Assembly (NCBI RefSeq): GCF_029395675.1
Contig: NZ_CP115184.1
Coordinates: 2,728,001 to 2,792,000 of the forward strand
Direction of reading: 5' to 3'
DNA: 64,000 nt
Origin: Janibacter cremeus
GTDB taxonomy: Bacteria; Actinomycetota; Actinomycetes; Actinomycetales; Dermatophilaceae
The stretch's first letter is position 1. Each line of letters opens with the position of its first letter. Under the pieces are notes generated by a model, which saw only the letters and a program-made list of their open reading frames with translations, did no database searches and was not told the origin of the DNA. The position numbers and the translations under genes are program-made. Positions 12,917-64,000 of the stretch are shown piece after piece.

Positions 12917-13885
12917 TCATCGGAGCAGCTCCTCGGCCAGGGCGAAGTCGCAGACGAGCCCGGTGACCAGGCCCCCTTCGACCGCTGCCCGCACGGCGGT
13001 GGCCCGCTCGGCGCCGGCGCACACGGCGATGACCTCGGGCATGGCCACGAGCTCGGCGACGGACACCGAGATCAGCCGGTCGGCCAGCGGCGAGGTGACG
13101 CTGCGCCCGTGCTCGTCGAAGAGGGCGCCGGCGATCTCGCCGACGACACCCGCCTCCCGGACCTCCCGGCGCTCCTGCGCCGAGACGGCGTCGTGGATCG
13201 TCGAGGTGCCCGCACCCCACCCGCCCAGCCCGACGACGGCGTGCGTCACCCGGGCCCGGTCGGCGATGGCGGTGCGGACCTCGCTCTGCCGCAGCACCGC
13301 ACGGGCCGCGGCGGCATCCTCGAGGACGAAGGGGGCGAAGAAGAGCGTGGCCCGCCCGCCGGTGGCCCGGGCGCTCTCCCGGGCGATGGAGACCGCGCTG
13401 GAGTCGACCCCGGGCACCTGGAGGGCGCCGGTCAGCTGGACGACGTCGACCGGGGGCAGGTCGTGCAGCAGGGCGGGGAGGACGCTGACCGTGCGTGACC
13501 ACGGGAGCCCGAGGACGTCCCCCTCGCGCAGCAGCTCGCTCAGCAGGTCGGCGGCGAGCTGTGCCAGGGCCTCCCGCGTCGCCGCGGCTCCGGCCGGCGT
13601 GGGCCCCGGGGTGACGAGCACGTGCTCGAGTCCCAGCCGGTCGCGCAGGCGGGCCGAGGTCTCGGTGTCGAGGCTGTCCGGCGGGGTGATGCTGATCCGC
13701 ACGATGCCCGCGGCCAGGGCGAGGTCGATGAGCCGGGCGACCTTGAATCGGCTGATGCCCAGGGTCTCGGCGATGTCGGTCTTGGCCTCGCCCAGCACGT
13801 AGTGGCGCCGGGCGACCTCGGTCGCCAGGACGAGCTCCCTCGGCCCCGGACCGCCCTCGGTCGGGACCCTGCCGGTGGTTGACAC
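12917..13885 (-). CDS. SorC/DeoR-family polyol-responsive transcriptional regulator
   Basis: 322 aa. The N-terminal helix-turn-helix (about residues 18-60: VLATEVARRHYVLGEAKTDI, then AETLGISRFKVARLI) is followed by the sugar-binding domain of SorC proteins (about 65-320), including AVVGLGGWGAG and EVIAVCAG. It starts at GTG 13885. Two palindromes, CTCATATGAG and CTCATGTGAG, lie 22-52 bases upstream in the gap shared with the divergent importer operon, with 21-base spacing. The regulator probably binds these and responds to a polyol or its phosphate. The ABC ATPase gene follows downstream in the same direction. Confidence 0.9.
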   Translation of the reverse strand: MSTTGRVPTEGGPGPRELVLATEVARRHYVLGEAKTDIAETLGISRFKVARLIDLALAAGIVRISITPPDSLDTETSARLRDRLGLEHVLVTPGPTPAGAAATREALAQLAADLLSELLREGDVLGLPWSRTVSVLPALLHDLPPVDVVQLTGALQVPGVDSSAVSIARESARATGGRATLFFAPFVLEDAAAARAVLRQSEVRTAIADRARVTHAVVGLGGWGAGTSTIHDAVSAQERREVREAGVVGEIAGALFDEHGRSVTSPLADRLISVSVAELVAMPEVIAVCAGAERATAVRAAVEGGLVTGLVCDFALAEELLR

Positions 13886-13906
13886 ACGAGCAGCATAGGC
13901 CCTTTA

Positions 13907-13916
13907 CTCATATGAG
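13907..13916. promoter_or_regulatory. SorC operator 1 (CTCATATGAG)
   Basis: Perfect 10-base palindrome in the divergent gap between the regulator and the substrate-binding protein gene. It is centred 21 bases (two helical turns) from operator 2, so two dimers would bind the same face. Confidence 0.7.
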
Positions 13917-13927
13917 CAACACCCCCG

Positions 13928-13937
13928 CTCATGTGAG
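13928..13937. promoter_or_regulatory. SorC operator 2 (CTCATGTGAG)
   Basis: Near-perfect copy of operator 1 with one central change. Together they suggest an extended consensus GCTCATATGAGCA. Confidence 0.7.
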
Positions 13938-13997
13938 CATCGGTGGATCGATGGTGACCACGCCGGCGGCGGTACCTCGTGCAACGGAGGACGAATC

Positions 13998-47715: not shown

Positions 47716-47735
47716 TCCACCACGCGCCCCACCGA

Positions 47736-47802
47736 TACGAACTACTGCAGGCAGCCCTTCGTATCGTCTGCAGTAGTTCGTACTGCGGCGGACGATACGA
47801 AG
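47736..47802. repeat. Interleaved inverted repeats (pseudoknot-like)
   Basis: TACGAACTACTGCAG (47736-47750) pairs with its complement at 47768-47782. CTTCGTATCGTC (47757-47768) lies in the loop of that stem and pairs perfectly with GACGATACGAAG at 47791-47802. The arms interleave, and GATACGAA at 47734-47741 can also pair with TTCGTATC. The region sits between the convergent gdhA and small Cys-rich genes. Confidence 0.8.
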
Positions 47803-47822
47803 TGCGGCTGACGCTCGGCTCG

Positions 47823-50838: not shown

Positions 50839-51678
50839 TCAGGAGTCGAGCTGCACCTGTGCCCGGTAGCCCTCACGGAAGGTCGGGTACCGCAGCCGGA
50901 AACCGCTCTCCCGCAACCGTGCGTTGCTCATCCGACGACCGCTCGGCTCAGTGCTCCCGGTCGGTGCCGGGCGCGGCAGACCGAGCTCGTCGGCGACGAA
51001 GTCCCGCACGGCTCCGGCGGGTGCCGGCTCGTCGTCGGTGCCGATGTAGAGCGGCTGCAGCGGGTCGACCCGGGTGAGCAGGTGCACGGCGGCAGCGGCC
51101 GCGTCGTCGCGGTGCATCCGGTTCGTCCACTTCCCCGGGTCGGGGTTCTCGCCGCGCCGGACCCGGGTGACCAGGCGGTTGCCCGGCGCCCCGTACAGAC
51201 CGCTGAGGCGCAGCACCGCCCCCTTCGTCCGCTCGTGGAAGAGCCGCTCGGCCTCGAGCAGCACCTCCGCCCGCCCGGTGGACGGCGCGGGTGCGGTGTC
51301 CTCGTCGATGTCCCCCTCGAGGTCGCCGTAGACGCTCGTCGAGGAGATGAGCACCGCCCGCTGCGGGGTGCCGGCGCGCAGCACGGCATCGACCCCCCGG
51401 CGCATCGCCTCGACGTAGGTGTGGCGGTACCCGGTCTCGTCCCGCTGGTCGGGCGCGAGCGCGACGAGCAGCAGGTCCGCGGGCAGGTCCGGCAGATCGT
51501 CGGTGGCGAGGTCCGCGGAGACACCGGTGATCTGAGGTGGGAGTGCCTCGATGGTGCGGCGGACACCGGTGACGTGGTGGCCGGCGTCGGCGAGGGTGGT
51601 CCCGACGCGGATCCCGAGGTCACCGGCGCCGATGAGCACGACGCGAAGGGGGGATCCGTCAGCTCGGTAGGAGGTCAC
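50839..51678 (-). CDS. NAD(P)-dependent epimerase/oxidoreductase-like protein
   Basis: 279 aa using GTG 51678 as start. The Rossmann motif VVLIGAGDLGIRVG lies near residue 15, and SSTSVYGDLEG, SGLYGAPGN and YIGTDDEPA follow the extended SDR pattern (NAD-dependent epimerase type). An ATG at 51735 would add residues QEPKQLRVRAWDHRAV that come from a copy of the 21-base repeat, so I prefer the later start. The active Y-x3-K is not obvious, so it may be an atypical or binding-only SDR. The gene stops 20 bases before the thioesterase start, so the two lie in the same direction. Confidence 0.72.
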   Translation of the reverse strand: MTSYRADGSPLRVVLIGAGDLGIRVGTTLADAGHHVTGVRRTIEALPPQITGVSADLATDDLPDLPADLLLVALAPDQRDETGYRHTYVEAMRRGVDAVLRAGTPQRAVLISSTSVYGDLEGDIDEDTAPAPSTGRAEVLLEAERLFHERTKGAVLRLSGLYGAPGNRLVTRVRRGENPDPGKWTNRMHRDDAAAAAVHLLTRVDPLQPLYIGTDDEPAPAGAVRDFVADELGLPRPAPTGSTEPSGRRMSNARLRESGFRLRYPTFREGYRAQVQLDS

Positions 51679-51703: not shown

Positions 51704-51756
51704 CGCAACTGCTTGGGCTCCTGCAAGCCAGGCACCGCAACTGCTTGGGCTCCTGC
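51704..51756. repeat. Two copies of the 21-base quasi-palindrome (32-base period)
   Basis: GCAACTGCTTGGGCTCCTGC occurs with one preceding C at 51704-51724 and 51736-51756, separated by 11 bases. The pair is in the divergent gap between the oxidoreductase (minus) and the mycothiol-enzyme gene (plus). Confidence 0.85.
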
Positions 51757-51772
51757 GAAAACCTCGGCGCTC

Positions 51773-51778
51773 TAGGGT
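51773..51778 (+). promoter_or_regulatory. -10 element TAGGGT, leaderless type
   Basis: TAGGGT lies six bases before ATG 51785, just after the 21-base repeats. Confidence 0.5.
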
Positions 51779-51784
51779 GTCGCC

Positions 51785-52594
51785 ATGACCAATGCTGACC
51801 CGCTGACCGTGTGGGACGAGGCTGCGCAGGATCTCCTGAGCCTCCTCCACGACCTGTCCGAGGAGGAGTGGGGCCGCCCGGCGCTCCCCGGCTGGACCGT
51901 GCGCGACGTCCTTGCCCACCTTACCCACCTGGAGTCCGAGGCGGCTGGCTTCGAGCAGCCGGCGGGCGGTCGGGTCGTGGTCGAGCCGGCCCGCAACCAG
52001 CCGATGCCGATCGAGGTCACCCGGGCCGGGGTCGCCGCCCGGCGTGATCGGTCGGCCGAGGAGCTGCTCACCGAGCTCGAGCGGGCGTGCGCCGTGCGTC
52101 GCGAGGCGCTGGCGAGCGCGGACCTGAGCGACCCGAAGGCCCCCGCGCTCGGCCTCGCCGGCGAGCTGGGCTGGGACATGCGGACCTGGCTGCGCAACCG
52201 GCCCATCGACCTGTGGGTCCACGAGCAGGACATCCGCCGCGCGACCGGCCGGCCGATGACCACGGCGACCACGGGGGCGGCGCACGTCGCGGGCGTGATG
52301 ACCGCTGCCTTCCCGGCTGCGCTGCGCAAGCTGCCCGCCGGCACCTCCGTCGTCGCCCACGTCAGCGGTCCGCAGGGCCGGGTCCTCACCGCTCGGGTCG
52401 GCGAGGACGGGCGAGCCGCCCCCTTCGACCCCGAGGACGGCGCCGAGGTGGAGGCGGTCGTACTGGAGATGAGCGACGAGACCTGGCTGCTGCTCACCGG
52501 CGGGCGGCTCGCGCCTGCGGACGCCGACGTCGCGGTGACCGGCGACGCGGACGTGGCCGCGCAGGTGCTGGGGCGGCTCAACGTCACCCCGTGA
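51785..52594 (+). CDS. Maleylpyruvate isomerase family mycothiol-dependent enzyme (DinB-like)
   Basis: 269 aa. The MDMPI-type N-terminal DinB four-helix fold shows WTVRDVLAHLTHLES and the metal-binding IDLWVHEQDIRRATG (His/Glu). The C-terminal domain (about 160-265) is the SCP2-like or MDMPI_C part with TAAFPAALRKLPAG and VVLEMSDETWLLLTGG. These proteins use mycothiol, the thiol cofactor of actinobacteria, for isomerisation or detoxification. Substrate unknown. A strong terminator follows. It starts from a leaderless-type promoter next to the quasi-palindrome pair. Confidence 0.87.
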   Translation: MTNADPLTVWDEAAQDLLSLLHDLSEEEWGRPALPGWTVRDVLAHLTHLESEAAGFEQPAGGRVVVEPARNQPMPIEVTRAGVAARRDRSAEELLTELERACAVRREALASADLSDPKAPALGLAGELGWDMRTWLRNRPIDLWVHEQDIRRATGRPMTTATTGAAHVAGVMTAAFPAALRKLPAGTSVVAHVSGPQGRVLTARVGEDGRAAPFDPEDGAEVEAVVLEMSDETWLLLTGGRLAPADADVAVTGDADVAAQVLGRLNVTP

Positions 52595-52600
52595 GCCGCA

Positions 52601-52644
52601 GTCGAAGACGAAGCGCGACCTCGAGGCCGCGCTTCGTCTTCGAC
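52601..52644. terminator. Strong hairpin terminator
   Basis: GTCGAAGACGAAGCGCG and its perfect complement make a 17-base-pair stem with a 10-base loop, right after the mycothiol-enzyme stop. Confidence 0.9.
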
Positions 52645-52662
52645 CCAGGCCTCCGGCCCGCG

Positions 52663-52668
52663 TAGCGT
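52663..52668 (+). promoter_or_regulatory. -10 element TAGCGT, leaderless type
   Basis: TAGCGT six bases before ATG 52675, with TCGACC 17 bases upstream as a possible -35 (it overlaps the terminator). Confidence 0.5.
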
Positions 52669-52674
52669 GGCGGC

Positions 52675-53685
52675 ATGAAGCATCGATACCTCGGCAACAG
52701 CGGTCTGAAGATCTCCGAGATCGCCTACGGCAACTGGCTCACCCACGGGTCGCAGGTGGAGGCGGACGCGGCGAAGGCGTGCGTGCGCGCCGCGCTCGAC
52801 CACGGCATCTCGACCTTCGACACCGCCGACGTCTACGCCAACACCGCCGCGGAGAGCGTCCTCGGCGAGGCGCTCGTGGGGGAGCGGCGCGAGTCGCTGG
52901 AGATCCTCACGAAGGTCTACTGGCCGACCGGGCCCAAGGGGCACAACGACTCCGGCCTGTCCGCCAAGCACATCCGCGAGTCGATCGACGCCTCGCTGGT
53001 GCGGCTGCGCACGGAGTACGTCGACCTCTACCAGGCGCACCGCTTCGACACGGAGACGCCGCTGGAGGAGACGATGCAGGCCTTCGCCGACGTCGTGCGC
53101 TCCGGCAAGGCCCTGTACATCGGCGTCAGCGAGTGGACCGCCGAGCAGATCCGTGAGGGGCACGCGCTGGCCAAGGAGCTCGGCATCCGGCTGATCTCCA
53201 ACCAGCCGCAATACTCGATGATCCACCGGGTCATCGAGGGCGAGGTCGTCCCGACCTGCCAGGAGCTCGGCCTCTCCCAGGTCGTGTGGTCCCCGATCGC
53301 CCAGGGCATCCTCACCGGCAAGTACCAGCCCGGTCAGCCGCTGCCCGAAGGGAGCCGCGCCGCCCACGAGGAGGCCGGCCAGTCGATCGCCGGCCGGGTC
53401 AATGACGACGCCCTCCTGACCGCCGTGCAGGGTCTGCGGCCGATCGCCGAGGAGCTGGACCTGACGATGGCCCAGCTCGCCGTGGCATGGGTCCTGCAGA
53501 ACGACAACGTCTCGGCCGCCATCATCGGGGCCTCGCGCCCCGAGCAGGTCGAGGAGAACGTCGCTGCTTCTGGCGTGGTGCTCGAGCCGGAGGTCATGAC
53601 GAGGATCGACGACGTCCTCGGCGACCACGTCGCGAGCGACCCGGCGATCACGGCCAAGCAGGCGCCGCAGGAGCGCCCGAGCTGA
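52675..53685 (+). CDS. Aldo/keto reductase (Kv-beta/YghZ-like)
   Basis: 336 aa. The AKR TIM barrel shows the catalytic tetrad in FDTADVYA (Asp, Tyr), ILTKVYW (Lys) and QAHRFD (His), followed by SNQPQYSMIHR and the NADPH-binding IIGASRPEQVEENVAA. The pattern MKHRYLGNSGLKISEIAYGNW and length correspond to the potassium-channel-beta/YghZ-type branch, which reduce aldehydes and ketones with NADPH. It is preceded by a terminator and a leaderless-type promoter. Substrate not assigned. Confidence 0.92.
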   Translation: MKHRYLGNSGLKISEIAYGNWLTHGSQVEADAAKACVRAALDHGISTFDTADVYANTAAESVLGEALVGERRESLEILTKVYWPTGPKGHNDSGLSAKHIRESIDASLVRLRTEYVDLYQAHRFDTETPLEETMQAFADVVRSGKALYIGVSEWTAEQIREGHALAKELGIRLISNQPQYSMIHRVIEGEVVPTCQELGLSQVVWSPIAQGILTGKYQPGQPLPEGSRAAHEEAGQSIAGRVNDDALLTAVQGLRPIAEELDLTMAQLAVAWVLQNDNVSAAIIGASRPEQVEENVAASGVVLEPEVMTRIDDVLGDHVASDPAITAKQAPQERPS

Positions 53686-53754
53686 CCGCCCGAGCCGACA
53701 CGGCCGCGCCCGCGTCGCGGGTGAGGCCGTGCTCCGTCTCGGAGACGCACGAGC

Positions 53755-54780
53755 TCAGAGGCGCACGAGCATCTTGCCGGTGTTCGCGCCCTCGAGCAGG
53801 TCCATGAAGGCCCGCGGCGCGCCCTCGAGACCCTCGCGCACGGTCTCGTCCCCGACCAGCCGTCCCTCGGCCAGCCAGGTGGCGGCGTGGGCGCGGTACT
53901 CGTCGGCCAGGTGCGGGTACTGACCGACGATGAAGCCGCGCAGGGTCAGACCCTTGCCGATGGCCTGGAACAGGTTGCGCGGGCCCGGGGCGGGCTCGGT
54001 CGCGTTGTACTGGGAGATCGCCCCGCACATCGCCACGCGTCCGAAGCGGTTGAGGTGACTGATCGCCGCCTCGAGGTGGTCGCCGCCGACGTTGTCGAAG
54101 TAGACGTCGATGCCGTCCGGGGCGACCTCGCGCAGGCCGTCGCGCACGGAGGTCTCCTTGTAGTTGAAGGCCGCGTCGTAGCCGAGCTCGAGCAGGCGCT
54201 CGATCTTCGCCGGGGAGCCGGCCGAGCCGACCACCCGCGCGGCACCGAGGGCCTTGGCGATCTGGCCGGCGACCTGCCCGACGGCTCCCGCGGCGCCGGA
54301 GACGAAGACGGTCTCCCCCTCACGCATCCCGGCGATGACGGTCAGACCCACGTAGGCGGTCACCCCGGGCATGCCCAGGACGCCGAGGTAGGCGGATGCC
54401 GGCGCGGCATCGGTGTCGATGACCCTCGCCTCCGCGGCGGGGAGCGTGACGTGCTCGCGCCAGCCGAGACCGTGCAGGACGTGGGCCCCGACCGGTGCAT
54501 CCGCCGAGCGCGAGGCGATGACCTCGCCGACCGCCCCGCCGTCCAACGGGGCATCGATCCGGAAGGGGGCGACATAGGACTTCGCGTCGTTCATCCGCCC
54601 GCGCATGTAGGGGTCCACCGACATGAGCGTGTTGCGCACGAGGATCTCGCCGTCTGCCGGCTCCGGCAGGTCGACGGTCTCGAGGCGGAAGTTCTCCGGC
54701 GTCGGCGCGCCGTGCGGTCGGGAGGCCAGGGAGATCTGACGGGTGGTGGTCGGGGTTTCTGCGGAGTGTTCGGGCTGCAT
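53755..54780 (-). CDS. NADP-dependent oxidoreductase, zinc-independent MDR (curcumin/alkenal reductase-like)
   Basis: 341 aa from ATG 54780. It has LMSVDPYMRGRMND near residue 53, the GxGxxG-type loop VFVSGAAGAVGQVAGQIAK and the FNYKE and DVYFDNVGGDHLEAAI motifs of the leukotriene B4/curcumin reductase-like family, without zinc ligands. These enzymes reduce activated double bonds using NADPH. -10 AACTGT six bases before the ATG and -35 TTGTGC (17-base spacer) suggest a leaderless transcript. The palindromes GTTGTGCACAAC and CAACCGGGTTG overlap the -35 and spacer, so a local regulator is likely. It shares a 76-base gap with the divergent unknown gene. Confidence 0.88.
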   Translation of the reverse strand: MQPEHSAETPTTTRQISLASRPHGAPTPENFRLETVDLPEPADGEILVRNTLMSVDPYMRGRMNDAKSYVAPFRIDAPLDGGAVGEVIASRSADAPVGAHVLHGLGWREHVTLPAAEARVIDTDAAPASAYLGVLGMPGVTAYVGLTVIAGMREGETVFVSGAAGAVGQVAGQIAKALGAARVVGSAGSPAKIERLLELGYDAAFNYKETSVRDGLREVAPDGIDVYFDNVGGDHLEAAISHLNRFGRVAMCGAISQYNATEPAPGPRNLFQAIGKGLTLRGFIVGQYPHLADEYRAHAATWLAEGRLVGDETVREGLEGAPRAFMDLLEGANTGKMLVRL

Positions 54781-54797
54781 GCGGCGACAGTTGCACC

Positions 54798-54816
54798 CAA
54801 CCGGGTTGTGCACAAC
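54798..54816. promoter_or_regulatory. Overlapping palindromes in a divergent promoter
   Basis: CAACCGGGTTG (54798-54808) and GTTGTGCACAAC (54805-54816) overlap; the second covers the -35 (TTGTGC) of the minus-strand oxidoreductase gene. The binding protein is unknown. Confidence 0.5.
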
Positions 54817-54856
54817 TTGGTTGTACGCAATTCATCCACACTGCTTGGATGGGCGC

Positions 54857-55483
54857 GTGGCACGCAGGCGGACGGTGGACCGGTTCGACGGGCGGATCCT
54901 CGGGGCCGGGACGAGCAGCGGGGTACGGCTCGTGGTCGGCGACTGGGCCGGCTCGCCGCTCGGCTCCTTCACCGATGTCATGGTCGCCACCGCCGACGAC
55001 CGCCGGGTGCTCCTGGCGCCCACCGAGGCGGTGGCCGACTACGTCACCTCGACCTACACCTTCGACGAGGTGGTGCGATGCGACGTCGCGCTGACCGAGA
55101 CCGCGGCGGAGGCCGGCACCCGCTGGCTCGTCGAGGCCGGCCCCCTGGTCGCCCGCCTCGACCTCGGCTCGCGGACGGCGACCGGGTGGCTGCTGGCGGC
55201 GATACCCGGGCCCCTCTCCCGCAGTCGGGTCTTCGCGACCCTCGCCGACCCGGTGGCACGCCTGGTCCACCCGGGCGTGCGGACCCGGGGCAGCGCCGGC
55301 AACGGGCGCCGGGAGTACTACGGCGCCCGCGACCAGCACGCCGTCACCCACGTGGCCGGGACCTGGCAGGGCCGGGACCTGGGGCGCCTGGGCGATGTCG
55401 CCCCCGACCCGCGGTTCGGCTTCAGCTCCACCCCCGCGCGCCCGTCCCTGACCCGGGTCACCACCACCGTCGTGCGGGTGTGA
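54857..55483 (+). CDS. Conserved hypothetical protein
   Basis: 208 aa from GTG 54857, preceded by TTGGAT six bases upstream and TTGTAC 18 bases further up. The sequence is beta-rich (RFDGRILGAGTSSGVRLVV, GDWAGSPLGSFTDVMVATAD) with a charged C-terminal half. I do not recognise a family. It is divergent from the NADP oxidoreductase and could be co-regulated through the shared palindromes. No membrane segment or signal peptide is seen. Coding is supported by long frame and third-position GC bias only. Confidence 0.6.
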   Translation: MARRRTVDRFDGRILGAGTSSGVRLVVGDWAGSPLGSFTDVMVATADDRRVLLAPTEAVADYVTSTYTFDEVVRCDVALTETAAEAGTRWLVEAGPLVARLDLGSRTATGWLLAAIPGPLSRSRVFATLADPVARLVHPGVRTRGSAGNGRREYYGARDQHAVTHVAGTWQGRDLGRLGDVAPDPRFGFSSTPARPSLTRVTTTVVRV

Positions 55484-55560
55484 ACACCCCGTGACCGGGT
55501 AGTGCGCCGACCTGCGGCGCCCTCCGGTGCCGCACCTCCATGCCTGAGAAGGAGAGCCAC

Positions 55561-56034
55561 ATGCCGCACGAGAAGGACGTCGTCACCTCGATCATGAAAA
55601 ACACGCGGATCGCGGTCCTGACCTATGTCGACGAGCAGGGGCGTCTGGTGTCCATGCCGATGGCCACGCAGGACTTCGACGACCCGGGGGTCGTGCACTT
55701 CATCACCGAGGCCGTCGCCGACAAGATGTCCGCCATCGCGGCCACCCCACAGGTCAACGTCGCCTACTCCTCCGATGACGGGTGGGTCAGCCTCAGCGGC
55801 ACCGCCCGACGCAACGACGACCGCAGCCTGCTCGAGCAGCTCTGGGGGCCGGGGAACGCCGCCTTCATGCCCGGTGGCCCCGAGGACCCCAACAGCACGG
55901 TGCTCACGGTCACCGCGGAGACGGCCTCCTACTGGGAGTCGCCCGGGAAGGCCGCGCTGGTGGTGGAGATGGCCAAGGGCGTCGTCGGCGACCACCAGGC
56001 CAAGCCCGGCGACTCCGGCACCGTCTCCCTGTGA
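55561..56034 (+). CDS. Pyridoxamine 5'-phosphate oxidase family FMN-binding protein
   Basis: 157 aa from ATG 55561 (GAAGGAGAG upstream; an ATG seven codons earlier is less likely). It has the split-barrel pattern MKNTRIAVLTYVDEQGRLVSM, VVHFITEAVADKMSAIAATP and VSLSGTARRNDDRSLLEQLWG of general-stress-protein-26-like flavin reductases. It probably binds FMN or F420 and acts as a stress protein or reductase; the reaction is unknown. It lies 191 bases before egtB, in the same direction, with no obvious link. Confidence 0.85.
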   Translation: MPHEKDVVTSIMKNTRIAVLTYVDEQGRLVSMPMATQDFDDPGVVHFITEAVADKMSAIAATPQVNVAYSSDDGWVSLSGTARRNDDRSLLEQLWGPGNAAFMPGGPEDPNSTVLTVTAETASYWESPGKAALVVEMAKGVVGDHQAKPGDSGTVSL

Positions 56035-56224
56035 TCCGGGAGGGCGGGCGCGTCAGGGGCTGATCGGCACCTCGACGCTCGTCGGCGATCTGTTGGTCGG
56101 GTCGGGTGCACCTCGGCCGGACACCCGGCGCCGGTCGCTCGGGTCGGGTAACGTCGATCGCGTCCGAAGCTCCACAACTCGGTGCCCGACGGGGTTCGTC
56201 AGACCTCGTCGCATGGAGGACACG

Positions 56225-57472
56225 ATGACCACGACATCCACCCGCCCGGACGTCACGAGACTGCTCGCACGCTTCCGTGACGTCCGCAGCCGTACCGATC
56301 GCCTGACCCGGGACCTGAGCCCCGAGGACCAGACGCCGCAGTCGATGATGCAGGCCAGCCCGGCCAAGTGGCACCGGGCCCACACCACCTGGTTCTTCGA
56401 GGAGTTCGTCCTCGGCAGCGACCCCGGGTACCGGCCGCGCAACCCGGCCTTCCGGTACCTCTTCAACAGCTACTACGAGGCCGTCGGGGAGCGACACCCG
56501 CGAGCCGCCCGCGGCCAGGTGACCCGCCCCGGGGTCGACGAGGTCGCCGCCTACCGCGAGGACGTCGAGCGGCAGGTCGCCGACCGGCTCGCCGCGGGCA
56601 GCCTCGACGACGCGGCGCTCGACCTCGTGGAGCTGGGCTGCCACCACGAGGAGCAGCACCAGGAGCTGCTGCTGATGGACCTCAAGCACCTCCTGTCCGG
56701 CAACGTCCTGCAGCCGTCCTACGTCGACCGGTCGCCCGATCCGGACCCCGGCGCCGGACCCGACCCCCTTCGCTGGACGCACCTCCCCGGCGGGCTCACC
56801 CAGGTCGGCGACGACGGCCGCGGGTTCGCCTTCGACAACGAGCGTCCCCGCCACCGGGTGTGGCTCGAGGACGTGGAGGTCGCCGGCAGGCAGGTGACCA
56901 ACGCCGAGTGGATGGAGTTCATCGCCGACGGTGGCTACCGCGATCCCCAGCTGTGGCTGTCGGACGGGTGGGCGACGCTGCAGGCGACCGGCTGGGACGC
57001 CCCCGGCTACTGGCGCCGGGACGAGGACGGGTGGACGACGTTCACCCTCTCGGGTCGCCGCCCCGTCGTCGCGGCCGAGCCGGTCTGCCACATCTCGTAC
57101 TTCGAGGCCGACGCCTTCGCGCGGTGGGCCGGGTACCGCCTGCCCACCGAGCAGGAGTGGGAGGCCTTCGCCGCCAGCGGCGACCAGGTGCGCGGCGAGC
57201 TGCTCGACCCCGAGCGGTGCCACCCGGCAGCCGCCCGCGAGATCACGCTCGGCAACGTGTGGGAGTGGACGGCCAGCGCCTACCTGCCCTACCCCGGCTT
57301 CGAGACGGCACCCGGCGCGGTGGGCGAGTACAACGGCAAGTTCATGAACGACCAGCACGTGCTGCGCGGTGCGTGCGCCATCACGCCGCCGGAGCACCCG
57401 CGGATCACGTACCGCAACTTCTTCCCGGCGGACTCGCGCTGGGTCTTCTCCGGTCTGCGGCTCGCCCGGTGA
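56225..57472 (+). CDS. egtB: Ergothioneine biosynthesis sulfoxide synthase EgtB
   Basis: 415 aa from ATG 56225, with GGAGG upstream (an ATG four codons earlier is possible). The N-terminal DinB-like domain includes the iron-ligand histidines in KWHRAHTTW (near 50) and HHEEQHQE (H141, H145). The C-terminal FGE-sulfatase-type domain (about 190-415) includes WMEFIADGGYRDPQLW, YRLPTEQEWEAFA and HVLRGACAITPP. It joins a thiol to trimethylhistidine using Fe(II) and O2. A TAACGT hexamer at 56149-56154 is a plausible -10, leaving a leader of about 60-70 bases. It overlaps egtD by 4 bases. No egtA, egtC or egtE was seen. Confidence 0.92.
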   Translation: MTTTSTRPDVTRLLARFRDVRSRTDRLTRDLSPEDQTPQSMMQASPAKWHRAHTTWFFEEFVLGSDPGYRPRNPAFRYLFNSYYEAVGERHPRAARGQVTRPGVDEVAAYREDVERQVADRLAAGSLDDAALDLVELGCHHEEQHQELLLMDLKHLLSGNVLQPSYVDRSPDPDPGAGPDPLRWTHLPGGLTQVGDDGRGFAFDNERPRHRVWLEDVEVAGRQVTNAEWMEFIADGGYRDPQLWLSDGWATLQATGWDAPGYWRRDEDGWTTFTLSGRRPVVAAEPVCHISYFEADAFARWAGYRLPTEQEWEAFAASGDQVRGELLDPERCHPAAAREITLGNVWEWTASAYLPYPGFETAPGAVGEYNGKFMNDQHVLRGACAITPPEHPRITYRNFFPADSRWVFSGLRLAR

Positions 57473-58410
57473 GCCGGGAGCAGCTCGAGGCCGACCTGCG
57501 CGCCGGCCTGTGGTCGCCGCCGCCGTCGCTGCCGCCGCGGTGGTTCTACGACGAGCGCGGCAGCCGCCTCTTCGACGAGATCACCGGCCTGCCGGAGTAC
57601 TACCCCACCCGGGCCGAGCACGAGATCCTGGCGCGTCGCAGCGCGGAGATCATCGAGATCACCGGTGCCCGCGCCGTCGACGAGCTCGGTGCCGGCTCCT
57701 CGACGAAGACCCGGGTCCTCCTCGATGCGCTGACCACCGGTGACCGGCAGGCGGTGTACGCACCGCTGGACATCAGCGGCGAGGTGCTCCTGGAGACCGC
57801 CGACCGGTTGCGAGCGGAGTACCCGACGCTGACCGTCGCGCCGGCCGTGGCCGACTTCCACCACCTGCCCTCGCTCGCCGGGGAGCCGGGCAGGCGTCTG
57901 CTGCTCTTCCTCGGCGGGACCATCGGCAACTTCACCGGTCCCGAGCGCTCGGACTTCCTGGCGATGGTGCGCGGTGCACTCGTCCCGGGGGACCACTTCC
58001 TCCTCGGCGCGGACCTGGTGAAGGACCCGGCTCGGTTGGTCGCCGCCTACGACGACGCCGCCGGCGTCACCGCACAGTTCAACCTCAACCTCATCGACGT
58101 CATCAACCGGGAGGCCCCGGTCACCGGGCTGCACCGGGAGGACTTCGAGCACGTGGCGCTGTGGGACGAGGACGCGCTGCACATCGAGATGCGCCTGCAA
58201 GCCGTCCGTGACGTCGAGGCGGACTTCACCGGTATCGGCCGTCGGTGGCGGCTGGCGAAGGGGGAGCACCTGCGGACCGAGATCTCCCGCAAGTTCCACC
58301 TCGATGCGCTGCACGCCGAGCTGGCGGACCACGGGTTGGCGACGGCGACGGTCGCCGGGTGGACCGACGAGGCGGGCGACTTCTCGCTCACTCTCGCCCG
58401 CGCCACCTGA
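57469..58410 (+). CDS. egtD: L-histidine N-alpha-methyltransferase EgtD
   Basis: 313 aa from GTG 57469, overlapping the egtB stop. The family signature WFYDERGSRLFDEITGLPEY, the SAM loop DELGAGSSTKTRVLLDAL and GGTIGNFTGPER (histidine-binding Asn) are present. It trimethylates histidine to hercynine, the substrate of EgtB. The two overlapping genes form a minimal ergothioneine operon. Without EgtA/C/E in view, the sulfur donor step is not defined in this window. Confidence 0.93.
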   Translation: MSREQLEADLRAGLWSPPPSLPPRWFYDERGSRLFDEITGLPEYYPTRAEHEILARRSAEIIEITGARAVDELGAGSSTKTRVLLDALTTGDRQAVYAPLDISGEVLLETADRLRAEYPTLTVAPAVADFHHLPSLAGEPGRRLLLFLGGTIGNFTGPERSDFLAMVRGALVPGDHFLLGADLVKDPARLVAAYDDAAGVTAQFNLNLIDVINREAPVTGLHREDFEHVALWDEDALHIEMRLQAVRDVEADFTGIGRRWRLAKGEHLRTEISRKFHLDALHAELADHGLATATVAGWTDEAGDFSLTLARAT

Positions 58411-58434
58411 GGGCGCAGTGCGCTGGTCGAGGGG

Positions 58435-61400
58435 TCAGGCCGTGGGCGGGACCGGACCCTCGGCGCTCGTCTCCACGACGTCCGCACCGGCAGCGGGTGG
58501 CATCCCGGCCGCGACCGCACCGGCCGGCGGCGCGGCGAAGTCGTCCACGGTGCCCGGGGCCCGGTCCGTCCCGGGGAAGCGGCGCAGGTCGAGCGTGACC
58601 GGGAAGTCGGTCACGGCCGGGCCGAGGCTCGCGAGCGGGTCCGGCAGCGCGGCGACGTCGACCGGTCCCGGGGTGTGGCCGCCGACGACGAAGCGCGCCG
58701 CACGGCGGGACTCGGCCGCCGCCGCGTTGACCGGGAAGCTGCTGTAGGAGATCCCGCCCGGGTGCGTCACGTGGTGCGTGAAGCCGCCGAGCGAGCGCCC
58801 GGACCACCGGTCGACGAGGTCGAAGACGAGGGGGCCGTGCACGCCGATCGTCGGGTGCAGCGCGGACGGCGGCGCCCACGCGCGGAAACGGACCCCACCG
58901 ACGAAGGCGCCGGTGCTCCCCTTCGCCCCGACCGGACCGCCCCAGCCCTGCTCGGCCACCGGGACCATCGGCACCGGGACGCCGTTGCACGTGACGACGT
59001 GCCGCCCCTCGACGAGGCCGACGGCGCGGACCTGGACCTTCTCCACGGAGGAGTCGACGTAGCGGGCGGTACCGGACTGGCTGACCTCGTCGCCGAGGAC
59101 GTGCCACGGCTCGATCGCGCTGCGCAGTCCCAGCTCGACCCCGCCGACGACCGTGTCCCCGAGCCGCGGGAAGCGGAACTCGAGGAAGGAGTCGAACCAC
59201 GCCGGGTCGAGCTGCCCCACGCCCTGCGACCCCAGGTAGCGGTTGACGTCGTCGATGACGTCCCGCAGGTCGGCGGCGACGAAGGCCGGCAGCAGGTATC
59301 GGTCGTGCAGGCGGGTGCCCCAGTGCACGAGCGGGGCGGAGTAGGGCTCGTCCCAGAACTTCGCGACGAGCGAGCGCACGAGCAGCGCCTGCAGCAACGC
59401 CATCCGCGGGTGCGGGGGCATCTCGAAGCCGCGCATCTCGAGCAGCCCGAGACGCCCGCGCTCGCTGCCGGGGGCGAAGAGCTTGTCGATGCAGAACTCC
59501 GCGCGGTGGGTGTTGCCGGTGATGTCGGTGAGCAGGTGTCGCAGCAGGCGGTCCACCAGCCACGGCCGGGTGTGCCGCTTGACGTAGTGGTCCCCGGTCA
59601 GCGGCTCGGTGATGTCCTGCGCGTCGTGCTCCATCGCCAGCACGTGGTCCATCTGGGCGAAGGCGATCTCGAGCTCGTAGAGCGTGTCGGAGCGGCCCTC
59701 GTCCACGCGCGGCGCCTGCGACGTCGGCCCGACGAAGCGCCCGGAGAAGAGGTAGCTCAGCGCCGGGTGGTGCTGCCAGTAGGTCACGAGCGAGCGCAGC
59801 AGGTCGGGGCGGCGCAGCAGCGGGCTGTCGGCGGGGGTGCGACCGCCGAGGGTCAGGTGGTTGCCACCGCCGGTGCCGGTGTGCGAGCCGTCGACGTCGA
59901 ACTTCTCGCTCGCCAGGTGGATCTGCCGGGCGTGCTCGTGCACGGACTCGGTCTGCTCGACGAGCTCGGTCCACGAGGAGGTGGGGGAGACGTTGACCTC
60001 GATGACGCCGGGGTCGGGCGTGATGGACATGGTGCGCACCCGCTCGTCACCGGGCGGTGGGTAGCCCTCGAGGACGACCGGCTGTCCGAGCTCGGTCGCG
60101 GCGCCCTCGACGGCCGCGATGAGCCCGACGGCGTCCTCGAGATCCTCGAGCGGCGGCAGGAAGACGAAGAGGTGTCCGTCGCGGTGCTCCACGGCCAGCG
60201 CGGTGCGCGGCGCCTCCTCGATCGGGATCACCTGCGCGGGAGCTCGCAACTGCCTGGGCTCCTGCGTGCTGGCTGCCCCCTCACCCTGCAACTGCTTAGG
60301 CTCTTGCGAATTGAATGCCCCCTCACCCTGCAACTGCTTGGGCTCCTGCGAAGGGGGGACGGCGGCCGGCAGCGCTCCGCGCGGGGCGAAGGGGGATCGC
60401 TGCGGCGTGATCGGCCCCTCGCCCCACGCGATGGAGCCGAGCGGCAGACGCAGTCCCGCCGGTGAGTCACCCGGGACGAGGGCGAGGAAGCCGCGGCGGG
60501 TGCGCCAGGTCGTCGTCGCCCAGCCCTCGCCGTCGGGTGCGGGGAAGACCGGCAGCACCCAGGCAGCCGGCGTGTCCGCGTCGACGGCCTCGTCCACCCC
60601 GGCCACGTGGGCGGCCCGGGCCCGCTCGTCGGCCAGCTCGGGGGAGTCGGGGGGCAGGTCGCCGGCGGTGGGCCCCTCGCCGGCCGGCAGGCGCGCCTCC
60701 GTGACGAGTCGCTGGAGCGGGTCCTCGACGGCCGGGGCGAGGTGCGCGACGTCGATCCCGAGCCGGCGGGAGATCGCGACGGCGAGGTCGCGGGCGGCGC
60801 CGACGGCCTCGGGGGAGCCGGACTCGAGGCGGGCCTCCCCCCACGGGTCGTCGAGCAGGTCGGGGTCGCTCCACAGCGGCTGGCCGTCGGTGCGGTCGGC
60901 GAGCATGATCTGCCAGCGGGGCAGGGGCTCACCCGGGTACCACTTGCCCTGGCCGTGGTGGCGCAGCGTGCCGGGAGAGGACAGCCGGCGCGCGAGCGCC
61001 ATGGCCAGCCCGCGCTTCTGCTCGCCGTCGGCCGCGGTGTGCCACTGCGGGTCGGTCGTCCCGCCGGCCGCGACGAAGGTCGGCTCGCCGCCCATGGTCA
61101 GGCGGACGTCCCCCTTCGCCAGCAGGCCGTCGACCGCCTCGCCCACCGCGGTGATCCGGGACCACTGCTCCTCGTCGACCGGCTTGGTGACGCGCGGGTC
61201 CTCCGCGAGGCGGGTGACGGTGTTGGCGAAGTCGAAGTCGACGCCGACGGGGCCGGTGGCGCCGCTGATCGGAGCGGCGGAGGAGGGGTGCGGAGTGCAC
61301 GAGAGGGGGATGTGCCCCTCGCCGCAGAGCAGCCCGGACGTCGCGTCGAGGCCGACCCAGCCCGCGCCGGGGACGTAGACCTCGGCCCACGCGTGCAGGT

Positions 61401-62142
61401 CGGTGAAGTCCTCCGCCGGCCCGCTGGGGCCGTCGACCGCGGCCTGGTCGGTGCTCAGCTGCACGAGGTACCCGGAGACGAAGCGCGCGGCCAGCCCGAG
61501 GTGGCGCAGCGCCGCGACGAGGAGCCACGCGCTGTCGCGGCACGAGCCGATGCCTCGGTCGAGGGTGTGCGCGGGAGTCTGCACGCCGGCCTCGAGGCGG
61601 ACGGTGTAGTCGACGCTCTCGCGGATGGCGCGGTTGAGGCCGACGAGGAACCCGACGATCGGGGTGCCGGCGCCCACGGCCGCGTCCCGGGGTGCGGTCA
61701 GGAGCGAGGGCATCCGCTCCTCGAGCCAGGCGACGACGTCGGGGGACGTGGCGGCGCCCCCGCGACCCCCTTCGTCGCCCACGGGGTGGAGGTACGGGGC
61801 GAGGTCGCCGCGCAGCTGCTCCGGGTAGGCGAAGGGGAAGGTGGCCGCCCAGTCCTCGACGAAGAAGTCGAAGGGGTTGATGACCGTCATGTCCGCGAGC
61901 AGGTCGACGGTGACCTCGAGGTGGTCGACCTTGTCCGGGAAGACGACGCGCGCCAGCCAGTTGCCGAAGGGGTCCTGCTGCCAGTTGACGAAGTGGTTCT
62001 CCGGCTCGATGCGCAGCGAGTAGCTCGGGACCGGCGTGCGCGCGTGCGGCGCCGGGCGCAGCCGGATCGTGTGCGGATAGACCTGCACGGGCTCGCTGAA
62101 GCGATAGCTCGTGCGGTGCTCGAGGGCCACGCGGATGGTCAC
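58435..62142 (-). CDS. Giant transglutaminase-like/DUF2126 protein
   Basis: 1235 aa from GTG 62142. The N-terminal domain (1-90) is Bact_transglu_N-like, and the transglutaminase core (about 160-280) has C201 in GSCRDSAWLL, H250 in DLHAWAEVYV and D266 in GLDATSG, the catalytic triad. The rest (about 300-1235) is the DUF2126 region, including HTGTGGGNHLTLGGRTPADS and WGTRLHDRYLLPAFVAAD. Similar proteins occur in mycobacteria with unknown function, possibly linked to peptide cross-linking or ATP-grasp-type ligation. Residues about 598-633 contain three in-frame copies of a 42-base repeat (EPKQLQGEGA-like). TACAGT lies six bases before the GTG. Confidence 0.85.
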   Translation of the reverse strand: MTIRVALEHRTSYRFSEPVQVYPHTIRLRPAPHARTPVPSYSLRIEPENHFVNWQQDPFGNWLARVVFPDKVDHLEVTVDLLADMTVINPFDFFVEDWAATFPFAYPEQLRGDLAPYLHPVGDEGGRGGAATSPDVVAWLEERMPSLLTAPRDAAVGAGTPIVGFLVGLNRAIRESVDYTVRLEAGVQTPAHTLDRGIGSCRDSAWLLVAALRHLGLAARFVSGYLVQLSTDQAAVDGPSGPAEDFTDLHAWAEVYVPGAGWVGLDATSGLLCGEGHIPLSCTPHPSSAAPISGATGPVGVDFDFANTVTRLAEDPRVTKPVDEEQWSRITAVGEAVDGLLAKGDVRLTMGGEPTFVAAGGTTDPQWHTAADGEQKRGLAMALARRLSSPGTLRHHGQGKWYPGEPLPRWQIMLADRTDGQPLWSDPDLLDDPWGEARLESGSPEAVGAARDLAVAISRRLGIDVAHLAPAVEDPLQRLVTEARLPAGEGPTAGDLPPDSPELADERARAAHVAGVDEAVDADTPAAWVLPVFPAPDGEGWATTTWRTRRGFLALVPGDSPAGLRLPLGSIAWGEGPITPQRSPFAPRGALPAAVPPSQEPKQLQGEGAFNSQEPKQLQGEGAASTQEPRQLRAPAQVIPIEEAPRTALAVEHRDGHLFVFLPPLEDLEDAVGLIAAVEGAATELGQPVVLEGYPPPGDERVRTMSITPDPGVIEVNVSPTSSWTELVEQTESVHEHARQIHLASEKFDVDGSHTGTGGGNHLTLGGRTPADSPLLRRPDLLRSLVTYWQHHPALSYLFSGRFVGPTSQAPRVDEGRSDTLYELEIAFAQMDHVLAMEHDAQDITEPLTGDHYVKRHTRPWLVDRLLRHLLTDITGNTHRAEFCIDKLFAPGSERGRLGLLEMRGFEMPPHPRMALLQALLVRSLVAKFWDEPYSAPLVHWGTRLHDRYLLPAFVAADLRDVIDDVNRYLGSQGVGQLDPAWFDSFLEFRFPRLGDTVVGGVELGLRSAIEPWHVLGDEVSQSGTARYVDSSVEKVQVRAVGLVEGRHVVTCNGVPVPMVPVAEQGWGGPVGAKGSTGAFVGGVRFRAWAPPSALHPTIGVHGPLVFDLVDRWSGRSLGGFTHHVTHPGGISYSSFPVNAAAAESRRAARFVVGGHTPGPVDVAALPDPLASLGPAVTDFPVTLDLRRFPGTDRAPGTVDDFAAPPAGAVAAGMPPAAGADVVETSAEGPVPPTA
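60245..60349. repeat. Three copies of the 21-base quasi-palindrome inside a gene (42-base period)
   Basis: Copies at 60245-60265, 60287-60307 and 60329-60349, each separated by 21 bases. On the minus strand they encode QEPRQL/QEPKQL repeats in the DUF2126 protein. The 42-base period is a multiple of three, so the frame is kept, unlike the 32-base arrays elsewhere. Confidence 0.9.
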
Positions 62143-62148
62143 CCGCCC

Positions 62149-62154
62149 ACTGTA
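62149..62154 (-). promoter_or_regulatory. -10 element TACAGT, leaderless type
   Basis: TACAGT (minus strand) six bases before GTG 62142. Confidence 0.5.
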
Positions 62155-62199
62155 GGCGCGGGTGGGGTGCCGGATGGCGGGGCGAGGGGCCCCGTCGGA

Positions 62200-62205
62200 G
62201 ACAAT
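62200..62205 (+). promoter_or_regulatory. -10 element GACAAT, leaderless type
   Basis: GACAAT six bases before ATG 62212, close to the TATAAT consensus in four of six positions. Confidence 0.5.
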
Positions 62206-62211
62206 GCGGGG

Positions 62212-63384
62212 ATGACCACCGTCCCGACCACGCCCGTCTGGCGCCTGCCCGGGATGCTAATCCTGCTCGTGGCGACGGTCGCCGGCTTCAGCGGCTTCTC
62301 GGCGCTCATGCCGGTCGCGCCGCTCTGGGCCGCCCAGGGGGGCGCGGACTCGGCCGGGGTCGGGGCCGTCAACGGCGTCCTCATGCTCTTCACGGTGCTC
62401 ACCCAGCCCTTCGTCCCCGTCGCGGTGCGACGGTGGGGGTGGGGGCCGGTCATGGCGGCCGGTCAGCTGCTGCTCGGCCTGCCCGCGCTGCTCCACCTCG
62501 TCGCCGACGAGCTGTCGTGGGTCCTCCTCCTCGCGGCCGTGCGCGGTCTCGGCTTCGGGATCCTCACCGTCACCGGCAGCGCCGCCGTGGCGAACCTCGT
62601 CGACCCGAGCCGGCGCGGTCAGGCGGTCGGCGTGTACGGGCTGGCCATCGCGGCGCCGCAGGTGGTCTTCATGCCGATCGGCCCGTGGCTGGCGCAGGAG
62701 ATCGGCTTCTGGCTGGTCTTCGCGGCCGGGGCGCTGCCGGTCATCGGCGCCGTCCCCGCGTGGCTCGCCGGCCGGTCCCTCGTCGTCGAGCCCGATGACT
62801 CGCCCGTGACGCACTCGCGGGCGCAGGTCCACCGCTCGCTCGTGCGCGCGATGCTCCTGCTGCTGGGCGTCACCCTCGCCGGCGGTGCGCTCATCACCTT
62901 CTCCAGCGACCTCGCCGGCGCGGCCTGGCTCGCGACCGTGGCGCTGCTCGTGCTCACCGGCGCCGCCGCCGTGACCCGGTGGAAGATGGGCGCGCTCGCC
63001 GACATCTACGGGACCCGGCCCTTCCTGTGGCCACTCGTGCTCGTCACGAGCACCGGGCTCGTCCTCGTCGCGGTGTCGCTCACGCGGGACGGGGCACCGG
63101 CTGCGGCCCTGCTCCTGCTCGGCGTCCTGTGCGTCGGGATCTCCTACGGTGCGTTGCAGAACCTCACCCTGCTGCTCGCCTTCGCCTCCGTCTCGCGGCG
63201 TGACTACGGCACGGCGAGCGCGGTGTGGAATGTCGGCTTCGACGCCGGCACCGGGCTCGGCTCGGTCCTCGTCGGTGCGATCGCCGCCGGGGCGTCGCTC
63301 ACGGAGGCGCTGCTCGTGGCCGCGGTGCTGTCCCTGGCCACCCTGCCCCTGGCGCTGGTGCGGGGACGCCCCGCAACTGCCTAG
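62212..63384 (+). CDS. MFS transporter
   Basis: 390 aa with about twelve transmembrane helices, a central loop (about residues 190-210) between two six-helix bundles, and the conserved segment GFGILTVTGSAAVANLVDPSRRGQAVGVYG of major facilitator proteins after helix 4. VSRRDYGTASAVWNVGFDAGTGLGSVL near the C-terminus is typical of drug/sugar exporters. No substrate is assigned. The TAG stop codon (63382-63384) lies inside the first copy of the quasi-palindrome array. It is divergent from the DUF2126 gene with 69 bases between. Confidence 0.9.
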   Translation: MTTVPTTPVWRLPGMLILLVATVAGFSGFSALMPVAPLWAAQGGADSAGVGAVNGVLMLFTVLTQPFVPVAVRRWGWGPVMAAGQLLLGLPALLHLVADELSWVLLLAAVRGLGFGILTVTGSAAVANLVDPSRRGQAVGVYGLAIAAPQVVFMPIGPWLAQEIGFWLVFAAGALPVIGAVPAWLAGRSLVVEPDDSPVTHSRAQVHRSLVRAMLLLLGVTLAGGALITFSSDLAGAAWLATVALLVLTGAAAVTRWKMGALADIYGTRPFLWPLVLVTSTGLVLVAVSLTRDGAPAAALLLLGVLCVGISYGALQNLTLLLAFASVSRRDYGTASAVWNVGFDAGTGLGSVLVGAIAAGASLTEALLVAAVLSLATLPLALVRGRPATA

Positions 63385-63488
63385 GCTCCTGCGCGGTCTG
63401 GTGCGCAACTGCCTAGGCTCCTGCGCGGTCTGGTGCGCAACTGCCTAGGCTCCTGCGCGGTCTGGTCCGCAACTGCTCAGGCTCCTGC
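63372..63488. repeat. Four copies of the 21-base quasi-palindrome (32-base period)
   Basis: Copies at 63372-63392, 63404-63424, 63436-63456 and 63468-63488 with nearly identical 11-base spacers (GCGGTCTGGTG). The core GCAACTGCCTAGGCTCCTGC has a GCCTAGGC palindromic centre and GCA/TGC ends. It lies between the convergent MFS and pterin-dehydratase/VOC genes. Confidence 0.92.
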
Positions 63489-63490
63489 GG

Positions 63491-63519
63491 GGCGAAGGGG
63501 GGAAGCGCCCCCCTTCGCC
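63491..63519. terminator. Bidirectional terminator with GAAGGGGG stem
   Basis: GGCGAAGGGGGG-aagcg-CCCCCCTTCGCC, a perfect 12-base-pair stem between convergent genes, same arms as at 32092-32120. Confidence 0.85.
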
Positions 63520-63525
63520 ATGGGC

Positions 63526-64000
63526 TCAGTTGTGCGGCTGCCAGGTGCAGACGCACGCCCGGTTGCCGTCGGCATCGGCGAGGACCCACCAGGCGGGGGC
63601 GTACTCGTCGGTGACGAGCTGACCACCGGCCGCGACCACCGCGTCGACCCGCTCCTGCGCCACGTCGTGCGGCACGTACACGTCGAGGTGGAAGGGACCC
63701 CCGACGCCCGGCTCATCGGTCACCTGGAACCAGATCTCGGGCAGCTGGCCGTCCGGGCTCGGCAGGGAGGTGCTGTCGTGGGGGGCCGGTGCGTGACCGG
63801 TCAGGGCCGACCAGAAGTCGCGGATCCTGTCCGGGTCGGCCGTGTTGATGCCGACGGTCATCGCGGTGGGGACCTGCGGGGCGTGCTCGACCTCGCGGTC
63901 GTCCGCGAGCCGGGAGATCACGCCAGCGAGCTGGATGTCGCGCGAGGTGATCCCGCCCACGTCGTGGCTGACCATCCGCAGGCCGACCCAGCCGTAACGC
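63526..64000 (-). CDS. Pterin-4a-carbinolamine dehydratase-VOC fusion protein, C-terminal part (cut by window edge)
   Basis: The frame is open to the window end, so the start lies beyond 64000; an ATG at 63975 is internal. Residues read there, YGWVGLRMVSHDVGGITSRD and IQLAGVISRLA, match the end of pterin-4a-carbinolamine dehydratases (HDVGGxTxRD motif). From about MTVGINTADP onward (over 100 residues) the sequence is a VOC/glyoxalase-type domain with FHLDVYVPHD and ACVCTWQPHN. Fusion of these two domains is known in actinobacteria; the VOC part's substrate is unknown. Confidence 0.8.
   Translation of the reverse strand, partial: RYGWVGLRMVSHDVGGITSRDIQLAGVISRLADDREVEHAPQVPTAMTVGINTADPDRIRDFWSALTGHAPAPHDSTSLPSPDGQLPEIWFQVTDEPGVGGPFHLDVYVPHDVAQERVDAVVAAGGQLVTDEYAPAWWVLADADGNRACVCTWQPHN

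Follow-up and report, generated by a model that had tools for sequence, protein, structure and literature searches.

Dispersed head-to-tail arrays of a 20-base quasi-palindrome, with copies mostly three or four helical turns apart, in Janibacter cremeus and related species

Introduction

Tandem repeats of constant size, with periods of 20-21 nt (noted as two helical turns) and 52 nt, are known from bacterial genomes, and the available excerpt of their account by Subirana and Messeguer (2021) proposes a protein whose polymerisation on DNA requires repeats of constant size (PMC8161180). In the same excerpt the detection limit was four repeats per array. Another class of short repeat, the repetitive extragenic palindromic (REP) element, also occurs as head-to-tail dimers according to an excerpt of PMC3733652. 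In this work we describe a 20-base quasi-palindrome, GCAACTGCYTRGGCTCCTGC, which forms head-to-tail arrays in a 64,000-nt stretch of the Janibacter cremeus genome (contig NZ_CP115184.1, positions 2,728,001 to 2,792,000; hereafter the window) and throughout that genome (G000, 3,495,359 bases), and we compare it with these systems.

Results

The initial annotation had reported nine 21-base units in three clusters of the window, with periods of 32 or 42 bases. All nine are present, the exact 20-mers beginning one base later than given there, and both periods are borne out in the three head-to-tail arrays, which lie on the plus strand. Array 1 (51705..51756) has two 20-mers at 51705-51724 and 51737-51756 with a 32-bp period. 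Array 2 (60246..60349) has three, at 60246-60265, 60288-60307 and 60330-60349, with a period of 42 bp or 14 codons. Array 3 (63373..63488) has four, at 63373-63392, 63405-63424, 63437-63456 and 63469-63488, again with a 32-bp period. Seven of the nine units are exact to GCAACTGCYTRGGCTCCTGC and two have one mismatch. Their outline, CGCA...TGCG, is symmetric; the proposed palindromic core GCCTAGGC is literal in three of the nine, but the other centres read TTGG, CTGG, TTAG or TCAG. The window contains no further site at up to two mismatches, and the first 51 kb are free of sites as first noted, but this is a local feature and the genome has sites on either side of the window.

A count over the whole genome places the three arrays in a much larger family. 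GCAACTGCYTRGGCTCCTGC has 42 exact occurrences there, 75 when one mismatch is allowed and 110 when three are, while the reversed pattern used as control gave 0, 0 and 29 occurrences. The occurrence of the 20-mer is not chance. Sites were collected at up to two mismatches to the consensus, together with same-strand sites that have at most four mismatches and are no more than 110 bases from one of these, a search by similarity that misses strongly decayed sites. This yielded 99 sites in 51 clusters, and at least 202 sites in at least 62 clusters in a sister species (G007), for which site, cluster, spacing and placement counts are among the matches listed. The number of copies per array is 1-4 in G000, up to 8 in G007 and up to 13 in another species of the genus, G001. 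Four or more repeats are found in 2/51 clusters of G000, 22/62 of G007 and 12 of the 13 G001 arrays fetched.

Units whose two halves are alike (GCAACTGCCTAGGCAGTTGC or GCAGGAGCTTGGGCTCCTGC) were seen at G000:2640883, 2924543, 2951975, 2997831 and 3355675 and at G007:16093, and are perhaps products of exchange at the palindromic core. Three G000 clusters at 3464813-3470420 are an exact repeat of those at 60132-65739. The contig has two pairs of identical stretches, 60000-66500 with 3464681-3471181, and 89319-90678 with the final 1360 bases (3494000-3495359). An untrimmed circular overlap of the contig ends is likely, but 12000-14200 fails to match 3416300-3419100 as would then be expected.

The spacing of the units is strongly constrained. 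As collected, all adjacent units lie on the same strand (48/48 pairs in G000 and 140/140 in G007); weak units with three or four mismatches were admitted on the same strand only, and one opposite-strand unit at 3355675 was thereby left out. Seventeen of the 48 spacings in G000 are 30-32 bp, 30 are 39-45 bp and one is 47 bp. In G007, 57 are 28-33 bp, one is 35 bp, 80 are 39-43 bp and two are 62 bp, both of the latter with a truncated unit between the copies. The best-fitting period is 10.2-11.0 bp with a phase near zero. Because tandem duplication copies spacer lengths, the 188 spacers of the two species were grouped by sequence and locus, which gave 35 families at 70% identity. Thirty of the 34 families with a spacing below 60 bp deviate by no more than 2 bp from a multiple of 10.5 bp (R 0.75, Rayleigh p 5e-9), where by our own estimate roughly 40-50% would be expected for uniform lengths; the four off-phase families have 28, 29, 35 and 47 bp. 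At 65% identity 13/17 families are in phase (p 0.0055) and at 75% identity 42/46. Many small spacer families make up the three-turn class; the four-turn class has a single large family (42 loci) besides several that are small. As there are only two main modes, the fit to 10.5 bp is suggestive and does not amount to proof, and the stronger point is that many different spacers agree on 10-12 nt. The spacers are mostly 8-25 nt, often near-identical and spread over dozens of loci, which fits the first judgement that the arrays are not CRISPR (cas genes were not searched for).

For placement, the 51 G000 clusters were reduced to 45 loci by removing the three exact duplicates and merging three pairs split by an insertion sequence (IS). 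Genes were called by a simple codon-usage script that misplaced some, such as the gene upstream of array 3 and those at IS-split loci. Arrays lie between convergent genes at 25/45 loci in G000 and 29/62 clusters in G007, compared with 14/60 gene pairs of the window, only the first of these counts including hand correction of gene calls. The excess is significant in both species, which are not independent of each other (Fisher p 7e-4 and 6e-3). In gaps between codirectional genes the array is nearer the upstream stop codon in 15/19 cases (G000) and 21/27 (G007), counted before merging, and the strand of the motif is unrelated to that of the genes (9 same and 10 opposite in G000, 14 and 13 in G007). 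A gap of -12 recurs, in which the stop codon of the neighbouring gene lies within the first or last 20-mer; in array 3 the gene upstream ends with its stop codon TAG (63382-63384) inside the first 20-mer.

Three of the 45 G000 loci and two of the 62 G007 clusters are inside genes. These arrays keep the reading frame and all have 42-bp periods: DUF2126 (three units here, four in G007), AtuA (two here, six in G007) and RsgA (two). Array 2 is in frame within a minus-strand gene and encodes a peptide repeat around QEPKQL. The AtuA array at G007:1264310 has six QEPKQL with a 14-residue period, and the RsgA GTPase array is at G000:3464813. In AtuA and RsgA the peptide repeats are imposed by the DNA motif.

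The initial annotation had pointed to the terminus, a plasmid partition system or a regulator gene as possible settings. Neither clustering at the terminus nor a plasmid partition site is supported: the sites spread over about 45 loci with a bias towards dnaA (Kolmogorov-Smirnov (KS) p 6.6e-4 and 5e-8, with all 51 G000 clusters and gene content uncorrected). Nor is a regulon supported by the 20 neighbouring proteins sampled, which share no theme. Helix-turn-helix (HTH) regulators stand beside two arrays between divergent genes, one of PucR type (G000:64434-65765, array 65636) and one of TetR type (G007:79569-80231, array G007 80292); they are possible candidates for a self-regulated binder.

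The arrays were compared with those of G007 by their flanks. Forty of the 51 G000 clusters, still including two exact duplicates and IS-split halves, pair with 35 of the 62 in G007 (identity 91-98% for 36 of the 40), and 11 have no partner by this test. Matched clusters mostly retain the spacing class and differ in copy number (e.g. 3 vs 8 and 2 vs 6). In the window, array 1 has three copies in G007 (spacings 32 and 31), array 2 four copies (every spacing 42) and array 3 three copies (spacings 30 and 31). The spacers of the two species look unrelated at 2843899 (20 and 22 nt), share about 7 of 11-12 bases at equal length at 51705, 2863366 and 2997831, and at two loci a 21-nt spacer in one species is opposite a 12-nt spacer in the other.

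Since the outermost units of unequal arrays are not always the same copy, conservation was counted at the seven loci whose arrays have the same number of copies in both species (16 unit pairs) and can be aligned without ambiguity. Differences were found at 18/320 positions of the unit, 18/182 of the spacers, 21/270 of the non-coding flanks and 283/5323 of the coding flanks. Fifteen of the 18 unit differences fall on positions 9, 11 and 17 of the 20-mer (15/48 there). With position 10 also omitted, the 16 other positions, which were chosen after the data had been seen, differ at 3/256 compared with 39/452 for spacers and non-coding flanks (p 1e-5). In a larger set of 30 loci the unit differs at 59/1080 positions overall and at 12/864 outside positions 9, 10, 11 and 17.

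Some of the 20-mers are interrupted by an inserted element of about 1 kb with ends GAGG...CCTC and a 313-amino-acid DDE transposase (PF01609, PF13340). By its DDE_Tnp_1 domain, terminal inverted repeats and short target duplication it is an IS4/5-type element. All four full copies (G000:C1:651.8k, 2537.2k, 3211.0k and 3334.7k) split a 20-mer at its centre with a 3-bp duplication of TTA or TAA. TNA targets such as TTA and TAA are preferred by IS427/IS1031-type elements, and in a G+C-rich genome the arrays may merely offer the element plenty of TTAG. G007 has IS-free arrays at three of the four sites by flank matching, the fourth matching less clearly. A decayed end of this IS was rejected as the origin of the 20-mer, as the element inserted into the 20-mer centre at 4/4 full copies and most 20-mers exist without it. 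A partial relative of the element (68%) is at G007:3219813.

To look beyond the two species, a generic paired pattern with a free gap of 6-36 was scanned over 186 genomes of the family. It matched six, all among the 16 of the genus (with palindromic pairs counted on both strands, 123 matches in G007, 40 in G000, 27 in G001, 6 in G014, 5 in G012 and 1 in G002), and the control gave 0. In an order-level sample one genome of 396 matched, the present one. Ten genus members have no pair by this pattern, which arrays of quite different sequence would escape. Arrays of G001 and G012 were picked from the listed places. The 13 fetched from G001 have the core GCAACTGCCCGGG, with 67/68 spacings at 30-33 bp; three arrays of G012 are of GCATTTGCCCGGG type, with spacings of 31-32 bp. 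The six pairs of G014 have spacings of 31, 31, 31, 40, 42 and 52 bp. A constant three-turn period is thus found with differing motifs in G000, G007, G001 and G012, and a second, four-turn period in G000 and G007. In front of a peptide chain release factor gene, one G001 array occupies the same place as a G000/G007 array (flanks 71-80% identical), and there both motif and spacing class differ from those of the other two species.

Across 84,980 named genomes GCARCTGCYTRGGCTCYTGC had 22 matching stretches, one match each, in scattered organisms including one Rhodococcus, own and near records possibly having been left out. A phage or plasmid origin was rejected: no viral contig contains GCAACTGCYTRGGCTCYTGCG, and window positions 63340-63530 match no plasmid. 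Literature searches with motif fragments, for which titles were judged among the matches listed, and on palindromic repeats in this genus gave nothing relevant by title; one on REP elements between convergent genes in actinobacteria found nothing, and the sole match on tandem REP sequences in Actinobacteria concerned Bradyrhizobium.

The bare 20-mer folds no better than shuffled sequences (z about 0), and the same is true of array 1 on both strands (z +0.8, +0.6) and array 2 on the minus strand (z +0.5). The plus strand of array 2 and both strands of array 3 do better (z -4.4, -4.3, -5.8), as do the typed stretches of the arrays at 2632899 and 2252784 (z -6.2, -4.2). An idealised fold with the flanks CCCCCTTC...GAAGGGGG reaches -24.3 kcal/mol, yet the flanks are not complementary locus by locus and a unit that is only a hairpin was rejected. 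Outer flanks with at least six pairs are found in 4/51 clusters of G000 and 5/62 of G007. Compared with swapped flanks, a cluster's own pair no better in G007 (1149/2000 swaps as good) and barely better in G000 (107/2000). The flank consensus (left ...TTC or ..TC, right GA...) has no conserved outer stem and no T run, so that the signature of an intrinsic terminator was not found, nor was the GTAG/CGTC tag of REP elements. A scan of the window against Rfam at gathering level gave 0 matches, which discards a known RNA family.

Array 1 lies between the 5' ends of divergent genes. On its left is an NAD-dependent epimerase-like gene (50839..51636, minus strand; PF01370 above and PF13460 below the cut-off) and on its right a mycothiol maleylpyruvate isomerase-like gene (51785..52594, plus strand; PF11716). 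By protein domain scan, the gene that contains array 2 (58435..62142, minus strand) encodes a transglutaminase and DUF2126 protein; six aligned relatives free of the array have a shorter linker at this position. Array 3 is between convergent genes, identified in the same way as a major facilitator superfamily (MFS) transporter gene that ends inside the array (62206..63384, plus strand, start approximate) and a glyoxalase-like gene (63526..63975, minus strand). Beside array 3 is a separate G/C-rich hairpin at 63491..63519, terminator-like without a T run; the fold of window positions 63485-63525 gives -28.6 kcal/mol (z -4.05), and 1 of 200 shuffles folds as well. Two other repeats were seen in the window. 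A convergent junction at 47716-47822 has a long inverted and direct repeat around GATACGAACTACTGCAG that is unrelated to the 20-mer, and at 2122-2261 a 73-bp unit is tandemly repeated (1.9 copies, 98% matches).

Discussion

The 20-mer is quite possibly a docking site on one face of the DNA for a putative sequence-specific DNA-binding protein, as the initial annotation had supposed. Among the readings considered, the spacing and the 16 constant positions out of 20 speak most strongly for this one, but no such protein was found. A protein that binds the unit and touches its neighbours on one face agrees with the symmetric outline, the many constant positions, distances graded in helical turns and a motif strand that is independent of codirectional genes. 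Such a protein would bind each 20-mer, probably as a dimer. With copies three (about 31.5 bp) or four (about 42 bp) turns apart, neighbouring bound units would share one face of the helix, and they could then touch and form a short ordered nucleoprotein array through presumed cooperativity. Arrays would gain and lose whole units through tandem duplication, with off-phase spacings rarely kept. Their main sites, whether by placement or by tolerance, would be gene 3' ends and chiefly the gaps between convergent genes. This placement suggests a roadblock, an insulator or a nucleoid site, and the complex could act on transcription or as a local chromosome-organising site.

Several points weigh against this reading, beginning with the missing binding protein. 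The unit in its entirety does not clearly stand out by conservation, differing at 18/320 positions compared with 39/452 for spacers and non-coding flanks (p 0.07); positions 9, 11 and 17 change fast between G000 and G007, and the 16 constant positions were selected in hindsight. Uniformity within a species could come from amplification of a founder, and the fit to 10.5 bp taken alone could be a coincidence, on the order of 1% by our own estimate. The right half of the unit is degenerate in G001, which fits a symmetric dimer poorly. Inside genes the motif is always opposite to the gene strand (4/4 clusters in G000, one of them a duplicate, and 2/2 in G007). The function is not essential, since only 6 of the 16 genus members carry such arrays. 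One G005 junction has conserved neighbours but no array, and its two stop codons are 18 bp apart.

The arrays might instead act as REP-like RNA or DNA hairpins at gene 3' ends, serving as bidirectional terminators or mRNA stabilisers, with the phased spacing a by-product of two unit lengths. We consider this unlikely. Array 3, the plus strand of array 2 and two further arrays do fold better than shuffles, and the IS targets the 20-mers as ISPpu9 targets REPs in the excerpt of PMC8450116. Against this stand the isolated 20-mer, array 1 on either strand and array 2 on its minus strand, which fold no better than shuffles, the want of a locus-specific stem from the outer flanks, and one array-free sister junction that by eye has no obvious hairpin in place of the array; the quantised spacing is also left unexplained. 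RNA hairpins are less well supported than a protein on one DNA face.

A selfish or recombinational origin of the repeat is distinctly unlikely. In that case the 20-mer would be recognised by an amplifying enzyme (a recombinase, nuclease or transposase), which would lay down new copies of the unit in helical phase without benefit to the host. Species-specific amplification, copy numbers that change by whole units, insertion into the AtuA, RsgA and DUF2126 genes and an empty junction in a relative would all follow, and the modest conservation of the whole unit agrees. But most arrays stayed in place while the flanks of G000 and G007 diverged by about 5%, there is no candidate enzyme, and a Y1 transposase of the RAYT type (PF01797) is absent from all 16 genus genomes, 5/14 control genomes being positive. 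A RAYT-driven REPIN was rejected on that absence. Operators of an ordinary regulon, or of a partition or terminus system, are very improbable: divergent genes flank a few arrays (window array 1, 65636 and G007 80292), and two of these gene pairs (at 65636 and G007 80292) include an HTH regulator, but most arrays are at 3' ends and not at promoters, the 20 scanned neighbours have no common theme, and the scattered sites are biased towards dnaA and not the terminus.

Under whichever reading, the family is REP-like in being a short imperfect palindrome with 99 and at least 202 sites, mostly extragenic. As REP elements and bacterial interspersed mosaic elements (BIMEs) are described in excerpts of PMC3733652 and PMC2817692, both are imperfect palindromes of 20-40 bp that occur in many copies at 3' ends and in convergent gaps, and both are clustered, with some copies in genes and some spacers alike in length and not in sequence. 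Unlike them, the present units are only head-to-tail, with no alternating orientation, and have helix-quantised spacing. ISPpu9 of Pseudomonas putida, according to the excerpt of PMC8450116, resembles the IS described here in that every copy sits at one position of a dispersed palindrome, but it gives an AG repeat, whereas here a DDE transposase and a 3-bp TTA/TAA duplication are found.

Rickettsia palindromic elements are palindromic repeats translated in frame within proteins. The arrays differ from them in the tandem 14-codon period and in lying mostly outside genes.

The constant-size repeats, as far as the excerpt of PMC8161180 describes them, share with the present family many dispersed arrays per genome with a constant period, a species-specific sequence with a short motif in every repeat, and array lengths seldom conserved (in their case between strains). 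Here, in contrast, the periods are mainly 30-32 and 39-45 bp (three and four turns), with one of 52 bp in G014, the arrays are short and the 20-bp unit is separable from the spacer; the convergent-end excess and the targeting by an IS belong to the present family. The function of constant-size, species-specific bacterial repeats is not known, and the idea of a protein on one DNA face becomes directly testable with this family. In two close species it separates a 20-bp unit from a spacer of variable sequence and near-constant three- or four-turn length, and the three-turn period extends with another motif to two more (G001 and G012). Its natural series of array lengths, arrays within genes and empty junctions make a role at convergent gene ends askable. 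A period of 52 nt is about five helical turns. A genus-level system is conceivable, though doubtful, in which a putative protein would form helix-phased filaments at gene 3' ends on 20-bp motifs peculiar to each species; motif and protein would evolve together, the spacing of three or four turns remaining fixed. If so, these arrays would fall into one class with the unexplained 20-21 and 52 nt repeats, with periods of whole helical turns (two, three, four and five).

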